Positions 27,898 through 57,443 of a stretch of DNA of 61,969 bases are shown here, piece after piece. The DNA is from Actinomycetota bacterium (GTDB lineage Bacteria; Actinomycetota; Acidimicrobiia; IMCC26256; JAENVU01). Location: NCBI GenBank assembly GCA_016870395.1, contig VGBT01000014.1, positions 1 to 61,969 of the forward strand, given 5' to 3'. The notes beneath the pieces were generated by a model. That model saw only the letters and a program-made list of their open reading frames with translations, did no database searches and was not told where the DNA came from. Every line of letters starts with the position of its first letter. Position 1 is the first letter of the stretch. A program made the position numbers and the translations under genes.

Positions 27898-30183
27898 ATG
27901 AGCTATCCGGGGTTCGAGGGATCGGTCGGTCGGGTGGTGGCGACCTCCAAGGGCTGGTGGCCGCCTCGGCCCACCCCCCGCGAGGGCGCGCCGAACATCG
28001 TCGTGATGCTGGCCGACGACCTCGGTTTCGCCGATCTCGGCTGTTACGGCTCGGAGATCGACACGCCCAACCTCGACAGGCTCGCGGGCCTGGGAGTGCG
28101 CTACACGAGCTTTCACGTCGCGCCGATGTGCTCTCCTACACGCGCCGCGCTCCTCACCGGTGTCGATCCGCATCGAGCGGGCCTCGGCACCGTCGCGCAC
28201 GTCGATCCGGGCTTCCCCGGCTACGCGTCGGAGCTCGCGCCCGACGTCGCGACCATAGCGGAGATCCTGCGCGACCGTGCGGGCTACGCCACGATGGCGG
28301 TCGGCAAGTGGCATCTCGCGAAAGACTCGGATGGCAGCGCGGGGGGCTCCAAGCGCTCCTGGCCGTGCCAGCGCGGGTTCGACCGGTACTACGGCGTGAT
28401 CGACGCGTTCACGAACCTCCACCACCCGCATCGGATCGTCGAAGACAACCACCAGGTCGAGGTCGACCGGTACGAAGACGACTACTACTTCACCGACGAC
28501 ATCACCGACCGTGCGATCTCGATGATCCGGGAGCAGCAGGCGAGCAACCCTAGGCAGCCCTTCTTCTGCTACTTCGCACACGGAGCGGTGCATGCCCCGC
28601 TGCACGCTCGACCGGAGGAGATCGCCAAGTACCGGGGTCGCTACGACGCGGGCTGGGATCGCATTCGCGAGGAGCGTTTCGCGCGCCAGCGCGAGCTGGG
28701 TGTCGTCCCACCCGGCGTCGAGCTGCCGCCGCGTAACACGGAGCCAGGCGACGACGTGCCGCCCTGGGACGAGCTCGCCGAGCGCGAGCAGCGTCTGTTC
28801 GCCCGCCACATGGAGGTCTACGCGGCGATGGTCGACCGCATCGACCAGAACGTGGGCCGCCTTGTCGAGGCGCTCGACGACGTCGGCGTGCGCGAGAACA
28901 CGATCTTCGTCTTCCTCTCCGACAACGGCGCGTCGCGCGAAGGTGAGGGGACGGGCACGACCGCCTACTACGTACACCTGCTGCAGGGTGACGACGTCGA
29001 CGCCGACCTCGCCCGCATCGACGAGATCGGCGGGCCCACGACCACTCCTCACTACCCGCGGGGATGGGCGATGGCGAGCGGCACGCCGTTCCGGCTCTAC
29101 AAGATCAACGCGCACCAGGGTGGTCACTCGGTGCCGTTCATCTGGTCGTGGCCAGCGGGCCTGCCGGCACGGGGTGAGCTGCGCACTCAGTACCAGTACG
29201 TCACCGGGTTGCTCCCGACCTTGCTCGAGCTCGTCGGCGTGGAGCGGCCGGATGAGCGTCAGGGCGTACCGCTCACACCCCTCCAGGGCGCCAGCTTCGT
29301 ATCGACCCTGCACGACCCCGACGCACCGGGCACGCATCGCGAGCACGTCGTGGAGAACAACGGACATCGGGGCTACTACCGAGAGGGCTGGCACGCGGTG
29401 ACGCGCCATCCGCGCATGGAGGCGTATGCGAAGGACTGTTGGGAGCTCTACGACCTCACGACCGACCCGACCGAGCTGCACGACCTCGCCGGAGAGCAGC
29501 CGGAGCGGCTTGCCGAGCTCGTCGACGCGTGGGAGCAAGCCGCCTGGGCGAACCGCATCTTCCCTCTCGACGACGGCACCAGCCTGATCTACCTGCAGCG
29601 CCCCGAGGCGAACGCCGCCTACGCTGACCCGATCCGCATTCCTCGCGGCACGCCGACGCTCGAGCGGTGGCGATCGGTGCAGCTGATCTGGTTCCGCGGG
29701 TTCACCGTCGGCGTGGAGCTCGAGCACCGCGCCGGCGACGATGGGATGCTCTTCGCCCATGGCGACCAGGGTGCCGGCTACGCGTGCTACGTGCGCGACG
29801 GTGAGCTCGTCTTCGCCCACAACGACGGTCGTGGGGGCATGACGAGGGTCTCCGGAGGCTCGTTGCCCAGCGGGACCCGCGAGGTCGTGGTCGAGCTCGC
29901 GGCCCCGGGTGAGCGGCGGTGGGACCTGTCGCTGCGGGTCGACGGACGCGAGGTCGCGACGCACGACGACCTACCGATGCTCTTCGGGATGGCGCCGTTC
30001 GAGGGGATCGACGTCGGGATCGACCGGCGCTCGCCGGTCGACTGGGCGCTCTACGAGCGCTTCGGACCGTTTCCGTACTCGGGTTCGCTCGCCGCGGTCA
30101 CCTACACCCCGGGCGAGCCCGCGCCCGACGCGCCGGTCCACCTGATGGGCATGCTCCGCGAGCTCGGCGCGAAGTTCGAGTAG
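27898..30183 (+). CDS. arylsulfatase with C-terminal extension
   Basis: A type I sulfatase of 761 residues that hydrolyses sulfate esters. Metal-binding Asp pair in MLADDLGFADLGCYG (about 37-51), the formylglycine site CSPTR at 78-82 (the Cys is converted by a formylglycine-generating enzyme, not encoded here), VGKWHLA near 138-144 and SDNGAS near 341-346. The last 200 or so residues, after the sulfatase core, form a beta-rich domain resembling laminin-G/concanavalin folds. No signal peptide is apparent, so it is probably cytoplasmic. GGAGCGAGGA precedes the ATG. With the pseudogene next to it, it interrupts the usual priA-def-fmt order. Confidence 0.93.
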   Translation: MSYPGFEGSVGRVVATSKGWWPPRPTPREGAPNIVVMLADDLGFADLGCYGSEIDTPNLDRLAGLGVRYTSFHVAPMCSPTRAALLTGVDPHRAGLGTVAHVDPGFPGYASELAPDVATIAEILRDRAGYATMAVGKWHLAKDSDGSAGGSKRSWPCQRGFDRYYGVIDAFTNLHHPHRIVEDNHQVEVDRYEDDYYFTDDITDRAISMIREQQASNPRQPFFCYFAHGAVHAPLHARPEEIAKYRGRYDAGWDRIREERFARQRELGVVPPGVELPPRNTEPGDDVPPWDELAEREQRLFARHMEVYAAMVDRIDQNVGRLVEALDDVGVRENTIFVFLSDNGASREGEGTGTTAYYVHLLQGDDVDADLARIDEIGGPTTTPHYPRGWAMASGTPFRLYKINAHQGGHSVPFIWSWPAGLPARGELRTQYQYVTGLLPTLLELVGVERPDERQGVPLTPLQGASFVSTLHDPDAPGTHREHVVENNGHRGYYREGWHAVTRHPRMEAYAKDCWELYDLTTDPTELHDLAGEQPERLAELVDAWEQAAWANRIFPLDDGTSLIYLQRPEANAAYADPIRIPRGTPTLERWRSVQLIWFRGFTVGVELEHRAGDDGMLFAHGDQGAGYACYVRDGELVFAHNDGRGGMTRVSGGSLPSGTREVVVELAAPGERRWDLSLRVDGREVATHDDLPMLFGMAPFEGIDVGIDRRSPVDWALYERFGPFPYSGSLAAVTYTPGEPAPDAPVHLMGMLRELGAKFE

Positions 30184-32954: not shown

Positions 32955-33611
32955 ATGGGCAAGATCGCACCGTCGATCCTCTCGGCCGACTTCGCACAGC
33001 TCGCCGCGGAGGTCGATCGCGTGCGTCCGGAGGCCGACCTCCTCCACGTCGACGTGATGGACGGCCACTTCGTGCCCAACCTCACGATCGGTGCGCCGGT
33101 GGTGCGGTGCCTCCGACCGCGCACGGATCTGTACCTCGACTGTCACCTGATGATCAACAACCCCGGTGACCTGCTCGACGACTTTGCGAAGGCCGGCGCC
33201 GACTCGTGCACCGTGCACGTCGAGCTCGGTGACCCCCGTCCGCTCTTCGACCGGATGCGCGCACACGGGATGCGGGTCGGACTGGTGCACAACCCCGAGA
33301 CCCCGCTCGACGCCGTGCTGCCGTACCTGGAGGACATCGATCTTCTGCTCTTCATGAGCGTGCACCCCGGATTCGGCGGGCAGGCGTTCATCCCGTCGGT
33401 GCTCGACAAGCTGCGGGCGGCCCGGAAGATCGTCGACGAGCGTGGCCTCGCCGTGGAGCTCGAGATCGACGGCGGCATCAACGCGCAGACTGCGCCGCTC
33501 GCCGCCGCCGCCGGGGCCGACATCCTCGTCGCGGGGAGCGCGGTGTTCCGCACGGCCGACCCGGTCGCCGCGGCACGCACCATCCGGGACGCCGCATGGC
33601 CGAACGGGTAG
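32955..33611 (+). CDS. rpe: ribulose-phosphate 3-epimerase
   Basis: Interconverts ribulose-5-P and xylulose-5-P in the pentose phosphate pathway, supplying ribulose-5-P to the riboflavin genes downstream. The 218-residue barrel has APSILSADF, HVDVMDGHFVPNLT, SVHPGFGGQAF and the IDGGIN phosphate segment. All metal ligands (His, Asp, His, Asp) appear present. Confidence 0.97.
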   Translation: MGKIAPSILSADFAQLAAEVDRVRPEADLLHVDVMDGHFVPNLTIGAPVVRCLRPRTDLYLDCHLMINNPGDLLDDFAKAGADSCTVHVELGDPRPLFDRMRAHGMRVGLVHNPETPLDAVLPYLEDIDLLLFMSVHPGFGGQAFIPSVLDKLRAARKIVDERGLAVELEIDGGINAQTAPLAAAAGADILVAGSAVFRTADPVAAARTIRDAAWPNG

Positions 33612-34093
33612 CGCACCTGGCCGCGAAGGTCCTCACCGTCTCCGACGGCGTCGCCGCCGGAACGCGCGAAGACCACGCGGGTGTCGCGCTCGTCGCCCGG
33701 CTGGGCGAACGCGGTTTCGACGTCGTGGAACACCGCGTGGTGGCGGACGGGATCGCACCGGTCGCGGCGGCGCTGCAGGCGATGACCGAGGGGTTCGCGG
33801 GGCTCGTGGTCACCACGGGCGGGACCGGGTTCGGGCCCCGCGACCTCACCCCCGAAGGCACCGCGGAAGTTCTCGAGCGTGACGCACCCGGAATCGTCGA
33901 GGCGATCCGACGGTCGGGCGACGAAGCCGACCGCGGATTCGGGATGCTGTCACGGGCTCGAGCCGGGACGGTGGGCCGGGCACTCGTCGTGAACACGCCG
34001 GGCTCGTCGAATGGCGCCCTCGAGGCACTCGAGGTGGTGCTCCCGGTGGTGAGCCACTCGCTCGAGCTGCTCCGCGGCGATCGTCCCCATTGA
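33596..34093 (+). CDS. molybdenum cofactor biosynthesis protein (MogA/MoaB family)
   Basis: A 165-residue molybdopterin adenylyltransferase-like protein, which activates molybdopterin for metal insertion. Visible: VLTVSDGVAAGTREDHAG, LVVTTGGTGFGPRDLTPE (the MPT-binding loop) and the C-terminal NTPGSSNGALEAL. It overlaps the end of rpe by 16 nt. MogA and MoaB cannot be told apart from sequence alone. No other moco genes are nearby. Confidence 0.9.
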   Translation: MAERVAHLAAKVLTVSDGVAAGTREDHAGVALVARLGERGFDVVEHRVVADGIAPVAAALQAMTEGFAGLVVTTGGTGFGPRDLTPEGTAEVLERDAPGIVEAIRRSGDEADRGFGMLSRARAGTVGRALVVNTPGSSNGALEALEVVLPVVSHSLELLRGDRPH

Positions 34094-34104
34094 CCCCGGG
34101 ATCG

Positions 34105-34126
34105 GAATAGAAACGCGTTTCAATTC
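34105..34126. promoter_or_regulatory. 22-bp palindrome over the riboflavin promoter
   Basis: GAATAGAAACG-CGTTTCAATTC is a near-perfect palindrome (10 of 11 positions) centred at 34115/34116. It lies just upstream of the extended -10 TGCTAACCT (34139-34147), over the -35 region, where a repressor would bind. The symmetry is typical of a TetR-type operator; the regulator is unknown. Confidence 0.6.
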
Positions 34127-34138
34127 TGGTCGGGATCG

Positions 34139-34147
34139 TGCTAACCT
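34139..34147 (+). promoter_or_regulatory. extended -10 promoter of the riboflavin operon
   Basis: TGCTAACCT, with TAACCT at 34142-34147, is about 20 nt upstream of the first paired bases of the FMN riboswitch. A poor -35 (TTTCAA, 34118) lies 18 nt away and overlaps the palindrome. Confidence 0.45.
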
Positions 34148-34167
34148 GACCGGACAGTCAAGAGAAG

Positions 34168-34320
34168 CGCCCTCGGGGTACGGGTGAAAGTCCCGACCGG
34201 CGGTGACCACGGCTCGGGCTCCGCCCGATCCTGGAAGCCCGCGAACCCACGGCCTCCAGCCGTGGGCCGACTCCGTGAGACTCGGAGGCCGACGGTTACA
34301 GTCCGGATGGGAGAGGGTCG
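34168..34320 (+). ncRNA. FMN riboswitch (RFN element)
   Basis: An RNA aptamer that binds FMN and represses riboflavin genes. Conserved blocks are present in order: GGGTACGGGTGAAAGTCCC, GACCGGCGGTGA, AGCCCGCGA, GTGAGACTCGGAGGCCGA, CGGTTACAGTCCGGATGGGAGAG. The P1 stem pairs CCCTC (34170-34174) with GAGGG (34313-34317). One arm is extended to a long GC stem (CCCACGGC...GCCGTGGG). The rib genes follow. No U-tract terminator is seen after it, so control is probably at translation. Confidence 0.97.
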
Positions 34321-34385
34321 AGCGGGTCCGGTGCGCGTCGCGCGTGCCCGGGCTCGACGTGGTGTGCACCCCGTGGGCCGGACGA

Positions 34386-34401: not shown

Positions 34402-34433
34402 GGAGAGCCTTGGGGACGACCGACGGCGAGCTG

Positions 34434-35531
34434 ATGGAGCGGGCCCGGGTGCTGGGCCTCGACGCTCGGCTGCGCACACCTCCCAACCCCTGGGTGGGTT
34501 GCGTGATCGTCTCCGGTGGCGAGATCGTCGGCGAGGGTGCCACCCGGCCTCCCGGAGGGCCTCATGCCGAGGTCGAGGCGTTGGTGGCTGCAGGCGCTCG
34601 AGCCCGGGGCGCGACGGCCTACCTGACCCTCGAGCCCTGCGCGCACCACGGCCGAACGCCACCCTGTGCCGACGCGCTGATCGACGCCGGGATCCGTCGC
34701 GTCGTGACCGCGATCGAGGATCCCGATCCGGCCGTCGCGGGGGCGGGGCACGCCCGACTGCGCGCTGGCGGGATCGAGGTCGTCGTCGGCGTCGAGGCGA
34801 CGGGGGTGGCCGAGGACCTCGCGCCGTACCTGCACCAGCGGCGCACCGGCCGGGCGTTCTGCCTCTGCAAGACCGCGATGAGCCTCGACGGCCGCACGGC
34901 CGCGGCCGACGGCTCCTCGCAGTGGATCACCGGCCCCGAGGCACGCGCCGACGGGCATCGACTGCGGGCCGAGTCCCAGGCGGTCGTCGTGGGCCCCTTG
35001 ACCGCCCGCCACGACCGACCGTCGCTCACGGCCCGTGACCTCGAGCCGGCCCCTCCCCGCCAACCGCTGCGGGTCCTGCTCGACGCGGCGGGGCATGTCG
35101 AGGTTGCCGGCCCGCTCTTCGACCCCCGCCTCGCGCCGACCCTCGTGGTCACCACGGGTGCCTCCCCGGTGGCCGCGCGCGAGGCGTGGGCAACCGCAGG
35201 CGTCGATGTGGTCGTGGTCGGGAGCGGCCCTCGCGGGCGCGGCGTTGATCTCGTGGCCACGCTCGAGCTTCTCGCGACCGAGCGCGGTGTGCTCCAGGCG
35301 ATGGTCGAGGGCGGTGGCCGCCTCCACGGCGCACTCGTCGCCGAAGGACTCGTTGACCGGCTCGTCGCCTACGTCGCGCCGGTGATCCTGGGTGAGCAGG
35401 GCCTTGCGGTTTTCGGCTTCGACGGCCCGGCCACGCTGGCCGACGCCCAGCGCTGGCAGGTCACCGACTGCACCCGCCTCGGCCAGGACGTGCGCCTGAC
35501 GTTCGATCCCATGCCGACCGGGGACGCGTGA
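34434..35531 (+). CDS. ribD: bifunctional diaminohydroxyphosphoribosylaminopyrimidine deaminase / reductase
   Basis: Catalyses the deamination and side-chain reduction in riboflavin synthesis. The N-terminal deaminase has the zinc motifs HAEVEAL and PCAHHGRTPPCADAL; the C-terminal reductase has KTAMSLDGRTAA and MVEGGGRLHGALV near the end. The ATG at 34434 (MERARVLGLDARLRTPPNPWVG) gives the normal family N-terminus, about 365 residues. GTG 34398 and TTG 34410 are in frame and nearer to purine-rich tracts, so the start is uncertain. First gene under the FMN riboswitch. Confidence 0.93.
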   Translation: MERARVLGLDARLRTPPNPWVGCVIVSGGEIVGEGATRPPGGPHAEVEALVAAGARARGATAYLTLEPCAHHGRTPPCADALIDAGIRRVVTAIEDPDPAVAGAGHARLRAGGIEVVVGVEATGVAEDLAPYLHQRRTGRAFCLCKTAMSLDGRTAAADGSSQWITGPEARADGHRLRAESQAVVVGPLTARHDRPSLTARDLEPAPPRQPLRVLLDAAGHVEVAGPLFDPRLAPTLVVTTGASPVAAREAWATAGVDVVVVGSGPRGRGVDLVATLELLATERGVLQAMVEGGGRLHGALVAEGLVDRLVAYVAPVILGEQGLAVFGFDGPATLADAQRWQVTDCTRLGQDVRLTFDPMPTGDA

Positions 35532-36220
35532 TGTTCACGGGGATCGTGGAGGAGCTCGGCTCGGTGCGCGCAGTCGTCGCGAGCGACGGCGGCGCGCGGA
35601 TCGAGATCGCCGCGACCACCGTGCTCGACGACGCGGCCCTCGGTGCCTCGATCGCGGTGAACGGGTGCTGTCTCACTGTCGTCGAGCTCGGCGACGGGTG
35701 GTGGGCGGCCGACGCGGTCGCCGAGACGCTCGACCGCACGAGCCTCGGCGCACTCGAGGCCGGCGATCCCGTCAACCTCGAGCGCCCCGTGCGGCCGAAC
35801 GATCGCCTCGGTGGACACATCGTGCAGGGCCACGTCGACGGGGTCGGGGTGCTCGTGGATCGGCACCCCGCGCCGGACGGCTCCACCCGCATGCGGTTCT
35901 CGGCCCCGGAGTCGGTCCGCCGCTACCTCGTGGAGAAGGGCTCGGTGGCGGTCGACGGCATCAGCCTCACCGTCACCGCGCTGCACGACGACGACCGAAT
36001 CGGCCGGGGCGCGGACGGCCCCGCCGGTTTCGAGGTCGCCGTGATCCCGCACACCCTTGCGGTGACGACGCTGGGTGCCAGGCAGCCCGGCGAGCCCGTG
36101 AACCTCGAAGCCGACGTGCTGGCCAAGCACGTCGAGCGACTGCTCGCAGGAGCGGCGGACGGCCACGGAGTGGCGGCGCCGGGCATCCCGGCGCCGAGTG
36201 AGCGCGACCAGAGAGGCTGA
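35531..36220 (+). CDS. ribE: riboflavin synthase alpha chain
   Basis: Dismutates two lumazines to riboflavin. The 229-residue protein has the two tandem lumazine-binding repeats (MFTGIVEELGSV at the N-terminus and GHIVQGHVDGVG near 95-106) and the usual NLEADVLAKHVERLLA end of the family. About 27 further residues come from a family B palindromic element (36142-36211) that is read through: LAGAADGHG to PSERDQRG. ATG at 35531 is chosen over GTG 35528 because MFTGIVEE is the family start. It overlaps ribD. Confidence 0.94.
   Translation: MFTGIVEELGSVRAVVASDGGARIEIAATTVLDDAALGASIAVNGCCLTVVELGDGWWAADAVAETLDRTSLGALEAGDPVNLERPVRPNDRLGGHIVQGHVDGVGVLVDRHPAPDGSTRMRFSAPESVRRYLVEKGSVAVDGISLTVTALHDDDRIGRGADGPAGFEVAVIPHTLAVTTLGARQPGEPVNLEADVLAKHVERLLAGAADGHGVAAPGIPAPSERDQRG
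36142..36211. repeat. family B palindromic element, copy 2 (inside ribE 3' end)
   Basis: It starts GCTCGCAGGAGCGGCG and ends GAGTGAGCGCGACCAG. The centre is a perfect 9-bp stem GGCGCCGGG (36175-36183) / CCCGGCGCC (36187-36195) with loop CAT. Same layout as copy 1, with a different but still paired central stem. It encodes the ribE C-terminal tail, and its end lies just before the ribBA ribosome-binding site. Confidence 0.8.
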
Positions 36221-36221
36221 C

Positions 36222-37445
36222 ATGTTCACCCACATCGAGAACGCGATCGCAGCGGTCGCCCGTGGCGAGATCGTCGTCGTCGTCGACGACGAGGACCGCG
36301 AGAACGAGGGGGATCTCATCATGGCCGCCGAGAAGGTCACGGCCGAGGCCATGGGCTTTTTCGTGCGCCACACGAGCGGGGTCATCTGCATGCCGATGGT
36401 GGGGGAGCGGCTCGACGCGCTCCAGATCCCGCTCATGGTGCACGACAACACCGAGTCGCAGCGCACCGCGTTCACCATCTCGGTCGACGCGCGCAGTGGC
36501 ATCACCACCGGCATCTCCGCGGCGGACCGCGCGACCACGGTGCGCACGCTCATCGAACACTCGTCGACCCCGGCTGACCTCGTGCGTCCGGGTCACATCT
36601 TCCCCTTGCGGTACCGGGAGGGCGGCGTGCTCAAGCGCGCCGGGCACACCGAGGCGTCGGTCGACCTCGCCCGGCTCGCCGGCTGCGAGGCAGCCGGGGT
36701 CCTCGCGGAGGTGGTGAACGACGACGGCACGATGGCCCGGATGCCCCAGCTTGAGACGTTCGCAGCCGAGCACGGGCTCCACCTCATCTCGATCGCGGAT
36801 CTGGTCCGCTACCGGCGCCATCGCGAGAAGCTGGTGCGACGGGTCAGCGAGGCCCGTATCCCGACGCGCCACGGGGACTTCACGGCCTACGTCTTCGAGA
36901 GCCTGCTCGACGGGGTCGAGCACATGGCGTTCGTCCGCGGCGAGGTCTCCGGTCAGGAGAACGTGCTGGTGCGCGTGCACTCGGAGTGCCTGACCGGTGA
37001 CGTGTTCGGGTCGATGCGCTGCGACTGCGGGTTGCAGCTCGACCGGGCGCTCGCGCAGATCGCCGAGGCCGGGCGGGGCGTCGTCGTGTACCTGCGGGGC
37101 CACGAGGGCCGTGGCATCGGCCTGGGCCACAAGCTGCGTGCGTACACGCTCCAAGACCAGGGTCGTGACACGGTGGAGGCGAACGAGGACCTGGGCTTCC
37201 CGGCCGACTCGCGTGAGTACGGGATCGGGAGCCAGGTCCTCGTCGACCTGGGGATCACGACGATGCGACTCATGACGAACAACCCGGCGAAGTACGGCGG
37301 GCTCGAGGGCTTCGGCCTCGAGATCGTCGAGCGGGTGCCACTGTCGGTCACGCCGAACCGCGAGAACATCGCGTACCTGCGTGCCAAGCAGGAGAAGCTC
37401 GGCCATCTCCTCGACATCGCCGACGAGGAGATCGGCGGATCGTGA
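36222..37445 (+). CDS. ribBA: bifunctional DHBP synthase / GTP cyclohydrolase II
   Basis: Makes dihydroxybutanone phosphate from ribulose-5-P and opens GTP, the two entry points of riboflavin synthesis. The 407-residue protein has the RibB domain (DDEDRENEGDLIMAAEKV near 22-39, TEASVDLARLAG) and the RibA domain with zinc Cys in SECLTGDVFGSMRCDCGLQL and the RGHEGRGIGLGHKL loop. ATG at 36222 follows GAGAGG; the GTG at 36198 would start within the repeat element. Confidence 0.97.
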   Translation: MFTHIENAIAAVARGEIVVVVDDEDRENEGDLIMAAEKVTAEAMGFFVRHTSGVICMPMVGERLDALQIPLMVHDNTESQRTAFTISVDARSGITTGISAADRATTVRTLIEHSSTPADLVRPGHIFPLRYREGGVLKRAGHTEASVDLARLAGCEAAGVLAEVVNDDGTMARMPQLETFAAEHGLHLISIADLVRYRRHREKLVRRVSEARIPTRHGDFTAYVFESLLDGVEHMAFVRGEVSGQENVLVRVHSECLTGDVFGSMRCDCGLQLDRALAQIAEAGRGVVVYLRGHEGRGIGLGHKLRAYTLQDQGRDTVEANEDLGFPADSREYGIGSQVLVDLGITTMRLMTNNPAKYGGLEGFGLEIVERVPLSVTPNRENIAYLRAKQEKLGHLLDIADEEIGGS

Positions 37446-37472: not shown

Positions 37473-37958
37473 ATGGGTGAGTACGCCGCTCCCGGCGAGG
37501 CGGTCGACGGCGCAGGGATCCGCGTCGCCGTGGTCGTCAGCCGGTTCAACCCGGACATCACCGGGCCCCTGCTCGAGGGCACGCGCCGGGCGCTCGCCGT
37601 GCGGGGAGTGGTCGACGACGACGTGACCGTCGCGTGGGTCCCCGGCGCCTTCGAGCTGCCACTCGTGGCCAAGGTGCTCGCCGGCTCCGGCGCGTGCGAC
37701 GCGGTCGTCTGTCTCGGTGCGGTGATCCGGGGCGACACCCCGCACTTCGACTACGTGGCCGGCGAGGCGGCCCGGGGCCTCCAGGAGGCGGCGCTCAGCA
37801 CCGGCGTCCCGGTCGTGTTCGGCGTCCTGACCACCGACACCCGACAGCAAGCGCTCGACCGGGTGGGAGGCAGCGAGGGCCACAAGGGCGAGGAGGCGGC
37901 GCTCACCGCGCTCGAGATGGTCGCATTGTTACGTCATCTGCCTCGCCAGCGCGACTAG
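37473..37958 (+). CDS. ribH: 6,7-dimethyl-8-ribityllumazine synthase
   Basis: Condenses the two RibBA/RibD products to lumazine; normally a 60-mer or pentamer. The 161-residue protein has VVSRFNPDITGPLLEGT, AWVPGAFELPLVAK, and GAVIRGDTPHFDYVAGEAA with the catalytic His near 89. GTCGAACGCGCAGGAGG lies upstream of the ATG. Confidence 0.97.
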   Translation: MGEYAAPGEAVDGAGIRVAVVVSRFNPDITGPLLEGTRRALAVRGVVDDDVTVAWVPGAFELPLVAKVLAGSGACDAVVCLGAVIRGDTPHFDYVAGEAARGLQEAALSTGVPVVFGVLTTDTRQQALDRVGGSEGHKGEEAALTALEMVALLRHLPRQRD

Positions 37959-56172: not shown

Positions 56173-57443
56173 CCACCCCCGACCCCCACGGGGTTTTGGC
56201 GTCAAGAGACCGCGATAGCCGCGGCCTGCTGACGCCAAAACCCCTGGAGGAGCTGGTTGCGCTCGACGCCGAGCACGTGATGCAGACCTACGGTCGGCTG
56301 CCCGTGGCGTTCGTCCGCGGGGAGGGCACCCGACTGTGGGACACCGAGGGCAAGGAGTACCTCGACTTCCTCTCCGGTCTCGCGGTCACCTCGTTGGGTC
56401 ACGCACACCCGGCGGTCGCCGACGCGCTCGCGGCGCAGGCACGCACGCTGCTTCACACGTCGAACCTCTACTACAACGCGCTCCAGCCGAAGCTTGCCGA
56501 ACGCCTCGACCTGCTCCTCACGTCCGCGACCGGGACCGCCGGCCGGACTTTCTTCGCCAACTCGGGTGCCGAGGCCAACGAGTGCGCGATCAAGCTCGCC
56601 CGCCGCCACGGCCAGGCGAACGGAGGTCCCGAACGCTTTCACGTGATCTCCGCGCTCGGCTCGTTCCACGGTCGCACCCTCACGACGCTCGCCGTGACCG
56701 GCCAGCCCCAGAAGCAGGAGACGTTCCAGCCGCTGCCCACCGGCTTCCGCCAGGTCGCGTTCGCCGACCTCGCTGCCCTCCGCCGGGCACTCGACGAGCG
56801 CGTCTGCGCGGTGCTCCTCGAGCCCGTGCAGGGCGAGGGTGGTGTGAACCCGGCACCGCCGGGCTACCTCGCCGCGGTGCGCGAGACCTGCGACGAGCGT
56901 GAGGCGCTGCTGCTCGTCGACGAGGTGCAGACGGGCCTGGGCCGCACCGGTCGCTGGTTCGGGTTCGAGCACGGGGGGGACGTTCGTCCCGACGTCGTGA
57001 CCGTGGCGAAGGCCCTGGGAAACGGCGTCCCGATCGGTGCCTGCTGGGCCCGCGCGGAGGTGGCGGACGCCTTCCGCCCGGGCGACCACGCCACCACCTA
57101 CGGCGGCCAGCCGCTCGCCGCCGCGGCCGCACTCGCCGTCCTCGACGTGATGGAGCGCGAAGACGTGCCGCGCCTGGCGGCGCAGGCGGGTGCCCGCCTC
57201 GCGAAGGCGCTGACCGCCCTCGAGGGTGTGGCCGAGGTGCGCGGCCAGGGTCTCCTGCTCGCCGCGCAGCTCGCACCCGGCCGTGACGCGGGTGCGGTCG
57301 CGAATGCGTGCCTGGAGGGCGGGCTGATCGTCAACGCGGTGACGCCGACCGCGCTGCGCCTGGCACCTTCGTTGCTCGTCACCGACGCGGAGATCGATGC
57401 CGCCGTCGCCATCCTGGAGGAGGTCCTGCTCCGTGACTCGTGA
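56169..57443 (+). CDS. argD: acetylornithine aminotransferase
   Basis: A PLP enzyme that makes N-acetylornithine. The 424-residue protein has GHAHPAVADAL, the PLP-binding LVDEVQTGLGRTG, and the Schiff-base Lys in TVAKALGNGVPIG. The first 30 residues are unusual; a family A palindrome (56190-56244) is embedded, encoding HGVLASRDRDSRGLLTPKPL, before the usual start (EHVMQTYGRLPV). GTG at 56169 overlaps argB. Confidence 0.95.
   Translation: MTTPDPHGVLASRDRDSRGLLTPKPLEELVALDAEHVMQTYGRLPVAFVRGEGTRLWDTEGKEYLDFLSGLAVTSLGHAHPAVADALAAQARTLLHTSNLYYNALQPKLAERLDLLLTSATGTAGRTFFANSGAEANECAIKLARRHGQANGGPERFHVISALGSFHGRTLTTLAVTGQPQKQETFQPLPTGFRQVAFADLAALRRALDERVCAVLLEPVQGEGGVNPAPPGYLAAVRETCDEREALLLVDEVQTGLGRTGRWFGFEHGGDVRPDVVTVAKALGNGVPIGACWARAEVADAFRPGDHATTYGGQPLAAAAALAVLDVMEREDVPRLAAQAGARLAKALTALEGVAEVRGQGLLLAAQLAPGRDAGAVANACLEGGLIVNAVTPTALRLAPSLLVTDAEIDAAVAILEEVLLRDS
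56190..56244. repeat. family A structured palindrome, copy 5 (inside argD)
   Basis: Outer stem GGGGTTTTGGCGTCA (56190-56204) / TGACGCCAAAACCCC (56230-56244), perfect 15 bp. Internal loop AGAGA/CCTGC. Inner stem CCGCG (56210-56214) / CGCGG (56220-56224), loop ATAGC. It is the strongest copy and lies inside the argD open frame, at codons 8-25. It does not disrupt the frame. Confidence 0.8.

Follow-up and report, generated by a model that had tools for sequence, protein, structure and literature searches.

A putative KstR-type operator at riboflavin promoters of one order of Acidimicrobiia, with and without the FMN riboswitch

FMN riboswitches on riboflavin (rib) operons and KstR regulons are already known, each as a system of its own. 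The motif of KstR, TnnAACnnGTTnnA, is a 14-bp palindrome that lies over a promoter in the form TAGAAC(N2)GTTCTA, and some sites of M. smegmatis start with GAGAAC, without the outer T (Kendall et al., 2007, PMC1995591). Mycobacterial rib genes are described as devoid of an FMN riboswitch (PMC12855090), and promoter control of rib by a Fur-type regulator is on record for clostridia (PMC6311696). Comparative analysis of a rib locus from an Acidimicrobiia genome now leads us to think it very probable that a palindrome over its promoter is an operator for a TetR repressor of the KstR family (PF17925), which would control initiation of the rib operon. We read the palindrome in this way because it lies on the -35 box, is conserved across six families, occurs in a genome that encodes PF17925 TetRs, shares its motif with sites near such TetRs and near genes of lipid/steroid type, and is present in lineages that have the operator only. 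The initial annotation, made from this sequence by itself, had proposed a TetR-type operator through which a DNA-binding repressor acts in addition to FMN sensing by RNA; the comparative data support both levels, a putative operator on the -35 plus the riboswitch, and suggest KstR as the operator class.

The window, by which we mean the whole stretch of DNA analysed, comprises 61,969 nt of contig VGBT01000014.1 (GCA_016870395.1, Acidimicrobiia). It belongs to a genome of 2.98 Mb in 97 contigs (G000), whose nearest named relatives by ribD are metagenome genomes of Acidimicrobiia. The genes follow one another in the order ribulose-phosphate 3-epimerase, MoaB-like, ribD, ribE, ribBA, ribH and hisG (Table 1). 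An RF00050 aptamer scoring above the gathering threshold stands 5' of the rib genes and is the sole FMN riboswitch of the genome. Upstream of it lies the 22-bp palindrome, positioned over the -35 region and 5' of an extended -10 just as first annotated, with a symmetry that reaches, imperfectly, across 34100-34131. It overlaps the promoter in the manner of a KstR-type operator, the predicted -35 box falling into its right half. Elsewhere in the window, a 761-aa open frame (27898-30183, + strand) looks sulfatase-like by eye.

Table 1. Features around the rib promoter, in window positions
Feature	Position	Strand	Remark
MoaB/MogA-like gene (MoCF_biosynth)	33596..34093	+	5' neighbour of palindrome; 11-nt gap from gene end
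22-bp palindrome GAATAGAAACGCGTTTCAATTC, candidate KstR-type operator	34105..34126	.	10/11 pairs complementary
14-bp core AGAAACGCGTTTCA within palindrome	34109-34122		
-35 box TTTCAA, inside operator right half	34118..34123	+	predicted
Extended -10, TGC TAACCT (hexamer 34142-34147)	34139..34147	+	predicted; 18-nt spacer after -35
FMN riboswitch aptamer (RF00050)	34165..34322	+	84.9 bits, gathering 66.2
ribD (deaminase-reductase)	34413..35531	+	exact start codon uncertain
ribE (riboflavin synthase, lumazine-binding domains)	35528..36220	+	
ribBA	36204..37445	+	
ribH (lumazine synthase)	37473..37958	+	

What sets this palindrome apart? Bare palindromicity is ordinary: the window holds eight palindromes of equal quality, against a mean of 3.6 and a maximum of 8 in 40 shuffles, and we dropped it as evidence for being weak. 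What is exceptional is the composition, position and conservation of the palindrome, and the case for an operator is built on conservation and motif identity instead of on symmetry. The shuffled windows contained no match to the palindrome even when up to three mismatches were allowed. Its core agrees with the KstR-class consensus TNNAACNNGTTNNA at seven of eight fixed positions, the outer left T being replaced by A, and its left half reads TAGAAAC, a variant of the usual TAGAAC that is common to the window and G003 (TAGAAACGTGTTCCAA). We trained a matrix on 13 sites, none from a rib promoter, that flank PF17925 genes in other genomes, the sites being picked by a consensus that the window site does not fully match. 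Under this matrix the window site, at 25.2 bits, outscores everything else in the 62 kb; elsewhere in the same genome six sites score 21.6-26.3 bits and a seventh, on contig 2, 17.2 bits; all 21 operator-bearing riboswitch promoters reach 25-32 bits, and the other 28 riboswitch promoters stay below 6.2. The next match in the window (TACTACAACGCGCTCCAGCC, 56469-56488, 14.2 bits) probably arose by chance.

Within its own genome the palindrome is isolated. The initial annotation had proposed looking for further copies near a TetR gene, a route that would fail: elsewhere the palindrome recurs in just two places, with three mismatches each and hence no close second copy, and all 19 TetR_N matches of the genome lie on contigs other than that of the window, which contains none. 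The exact consensus has 17 sites in the genome versus 9 for a reversed control, and a one-mismatch search for TRGAACNNGTTCYA gave 22 sites versus 23, no excess. Because the one-mismatch counts equal the control level, only near-perfect sites of this genome are informative, and because the search for the palindrome was barren, the link to TetR regulators becomes visible only through the motif of the relatives.

The relatives are more telling. An FMN riboswitch was sought in the 120 nearest genomes and matched in 49 (34 of the order, 15 of the wider class); the sequence 5' of each was inspected, with 150 nt upstream of the aptamer as the motif window. Within that distance, an exact consensus occurs in 19 of the order's 34 genomes with a riboswitch, and 21 have the motif when G000 and G003 are added, which carry one mismatch each (AGAAACGCGTTTCA, AGAAACGTGTTCCA) and keep the AAC-NN-GTT core; after dinucleotide shuffling, the 34 upstream stretches yielded a mean of 0.07 matches and a maximum of 1. 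Lack of conservation before the rib operons of relatives, which had been named at the outset as grounds for giving up the operator, is thus not what these genomes display. The 15 riboswitch-bearing genomes of the wider class outside the order have no motif on the rib promoter. Altogether, of the 48 genomes of the order that could be assessed, 29 have the motif on the rib promoter (the one-mismatch G000 and G003 counted), and these are distributed over six families. A TANNNT sequence follows 16-19 nt 3' of the operator in 26 of these 29 promoters, riboswitch-less ones included, as compared with a mean of 2.2 and a maximum of 7 after shuffling of the downstream sequence. In a collection of named genomes, a consensus match within 600 nt was found at one of 80 ribD loci, that of a Rhodanobacter and probably by chance, and at none of the Acidimicrobiia and Pseudonocardiales loci, which argues that the rib operator is limited to its clade.

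Does the operator depend on the riboswitch? The order includes 24 riboswitch-less genomes, 14 of which are readable before ribD; ten were set aside (G007, G008, G011, G016, G018, G020, G027, G033, G045, G050), ribD being absent or weak or the sequence being cut by a contig end or N run. The operator precedes ribD in eight of the 14 (G001, G002, G013, G023, G032, G042, G047, G054), and therefore is independent of the riboswitch; a search of these eight loci up to E 0.1 yielded no FMN aptamer. In the window's genus, both other genomes carry the operator (TAGAACGTGTTACA) on the -35 and ribD behind a similar MoaB-like frame, and their short rib leader matches no FMN aptamer up to E 1. In families f1, f10 and f12, operator-only genomes have family mates that still carry the riboswitch, so that loss of the riboswitch is the simpler reading there. 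G054 has two perfect KstR-type palindromes before ribD, 65 nt apart (G054:C27:2144-2222), and the gene upstream of rib is P-loop kinase-like (AAA_33), not MoaB-like; the operator accordingly stays with rib across a changed gene order. On balance we lean towards a scenario whereby a lipid/steroid regulon of KstR type took in vitamin B2 synthesis in this order, atop the riboswitch in many lineages, and whereby in several separate ones (G001/G002, G013, G023, G032/G054, G042, G047) a catabolic repressor replaced a metabolite-sensing RNA. Two irregularities among these loci deserve mention. The G013 leader has, past the operator, a CCTCGGG stretch like the start of a riboswitch leader, with no FMN aptamer detected, and is possibly a decayed riboswitch; the ribD of G023 is present as two overlapping frames (G023:C1:2277073-2278157), as if the gene or its assembly contained a frameshift.

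It is conceivable that the conserved element is just a strong -35 or upstream promoter element whose symmetry is accidental and which binds no repressor. We consider this very unlikely, since such an element would fit the -35 box in the right half and the near-fixed distance to the -10 (26/29), but neither the conservation of the left half TAGAAC, which lies outside the -35, nor the recognition of the site by a KstR-type matrix trained on no rib promoter. The element is, moreover, absent from other riboswitch-bearing rib promoters (13/34 in the order, 15/15 in the class), all 29 operator-bearing genomes have PF17925, and the right half in G032 and G054 reads GTTCTA, a perfect operator half and not a better -35.

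Which protein might bind the putative operator? Two TetRs of the genome have a C-terminal PF17925 domain and KstR as best match, on contig 59 (E 1.2e-28, to KstR structures) and contig 69 (6e-26); both combine TetR_N with PF17925 and resemble KstR over nearly the full length. As to possible autoregulation, GGGAACGTGTTCCA stands close to the probable start of the contig-69 gene, with TGGAACGTGTTCTA immediately 3', and the neighbourhood of the contig-59 gene holds two perfect sites, at 0.8 and 4.5 kb from the start of that gene. The contig-59 cluster (L150:1-6500) encodes, besides the KstR-like TetR, a nitronate monooxygenase, a thioesterase, an enoyl-CoA hydratase and a P450, and harbours those two perfect KstR-type sites. 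Among 30 PF17925 loci fetched, 13 have a consensus site nearby and 17 do not, the reversed control having none.

Across 61 genomes, perfect TAGAACNNGTTCTA sites number 72, versus 7 for the reversed control; a PF17925 gene is found no more than 10 kb away from 19 of the 72, where roughly one would be expected. Each of the 32 genomes that contain a perfect site also has PF17925, and the 13 that lack PF17925 contain no such site. PF17925 also accompanies the rib operator in 29 of 29 genomes, versus 14 of 19 without the operator (Fisher p 0.007, kinship not corrected); G017 and G028 of family f12 are without both, and G049 has a PF17925 gene and no operator. It is unlikely that the site belongs, instead of to a KstR-like protein, to a different TetR or to a dimeric regulator of another kind that recognises a similar palindrome and might respond to flavin or redox state: the genome has 19 TetR_N matches to choose from and the window shares its variant left half TAGAAAC with G003 (TAGAAACGTGTTCCAA), but the site has the matrix identity of sites beside PF17925 TetRs, PF17925 co-occurs in 29/29, and eight operator genomes possess a single PF17925 gene (G001, G002, G023, G043, G047, G051, G053, G055).

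The genes beside sites of the window's genome encode P450s, luciferase-like monooxygenases, a nitronate monooxygenase, an enoyl-CoA hydratase and an AMP-ligase. The 26 proteins flanking perfect sites of G054, G032 and G052 include four acyl-CoA dehydrogenases, three luciferase-like monooxygenases, two AMP-ligases and one KshA-type ketosteroid hydroxylase. Several of the families beside sites use flavin. A site adjoins kshA-type genes in G054, G042 and G052. A kshA homologue occurs in 34 of the 61 genomes, that of the window included, where its contig (C80) has no motif site among exact-consensus or one-mismatch matches.

A tree of PF17925 proteins (96 loci minus four short fragments, giving 92, plus the two of the window's genome) contains at least three clades, the third being that of the operator-bearing f12 genomes, so the rib regulator need not be one orthologue everywhere. 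In f1, f6, f10 and f18, the phylogeny suggests the contig-69 clade as a candidate rib regulator, because its single-PF17925 genomes (G001, G002, G023) carry the operator and four genomes with only a contig-59-type gene, all of one family (G021, G031, G036, G039), do not. The same comparison makes it doubtful, though a real possibility, that the KstR-like repressor is of the contig-59 clade instead, or that both paralogues act, which would be a variant of the KstR-type reading and not exclusive of it. In favour of this variant are the two perfect sites in the contig-59 neighbourhood and the genomes G013 and G052, which combine the rib operator with a contig-59-type gene and yielded no contig-69-type gene; their assemblies, however, are incomplete (89 and 68%), and they misfit the contig-69 assignment unless the gene is missing from the assembly. 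Five genomes have a contig-69-type gene and no rib operator (G014, G019, G022, G029, G048).

How might a KstR-type operator govern flavin synthesis? The release ligand of KstR is of the CoA thioester or steroid-CoA class. We envision that a KstR-like dimer, here most likely the contig-69 paralogue, would occupy the -35 and keep RNA polymerase off, and that the operator would be freed by a ligand of lipid or steroid origin, probably a CoA thioester. Flavin synthesis would then rise along with the flavin-using catabolic enzymes, and the FMN riboswitch, where present, would limit the transcript by product feedback, so that the combined logic might amount to an AND gate: lipid present and FMN low. 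If true, cofactor supply would be tied, via a named repressor family, to the catabolic programme that consumes it, the consumers being FAD acyl-CoA dehydrogenases and flavin-type monooxygenases. Within the order, genomes with the riboswitch alone, with riboswitch and operator, with the operator alone and with neither would also form a natural series that may reveal how a protein supplements and replaces a riboswitch.

Two-level control of rib had been called unusual, a view that holds for the form proposed here: searches of the open-licence literature yielded no KstR-type (lipid/steroid repressor) control of a rib operon, nothing relevant on KstR and riboflavin among the papers listed, the excerpted R. 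equi paper included, and nothing on KstR and Acidimicrobi. It is not wholly without precedent, since the clostridial system is reported to place a transcription factor at the rib promoter as well; that system couples an iron signal to a Fur box, in contrast to the lipid-type TetR suggested here (PMC6311696). The KstR regulon of mycobacteria (Rv3574/MSMEG_6042) resembles the one proposed here in the TetR family, represented here by PF17925, in a 14-bp palindrome TnnAACnnGTTnnA that overlaps promoter elements and in targets of lipid metabolism and redox type, putative ones here, but here the rib operon carries the putative operator, and the word riboflavin does not occur in the mycobacterial paper (PMC1995591). 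With rib operons under the FMN riboswitch (RFN element, RF00050) the locus shares the same canonical aptamer 5' of ribD-ribE-ribBA-ribH; it differs from them by an additional, putative protein operator on the promoter, which stands alone in eight of the 14 assessable riboswitch-less relatives.
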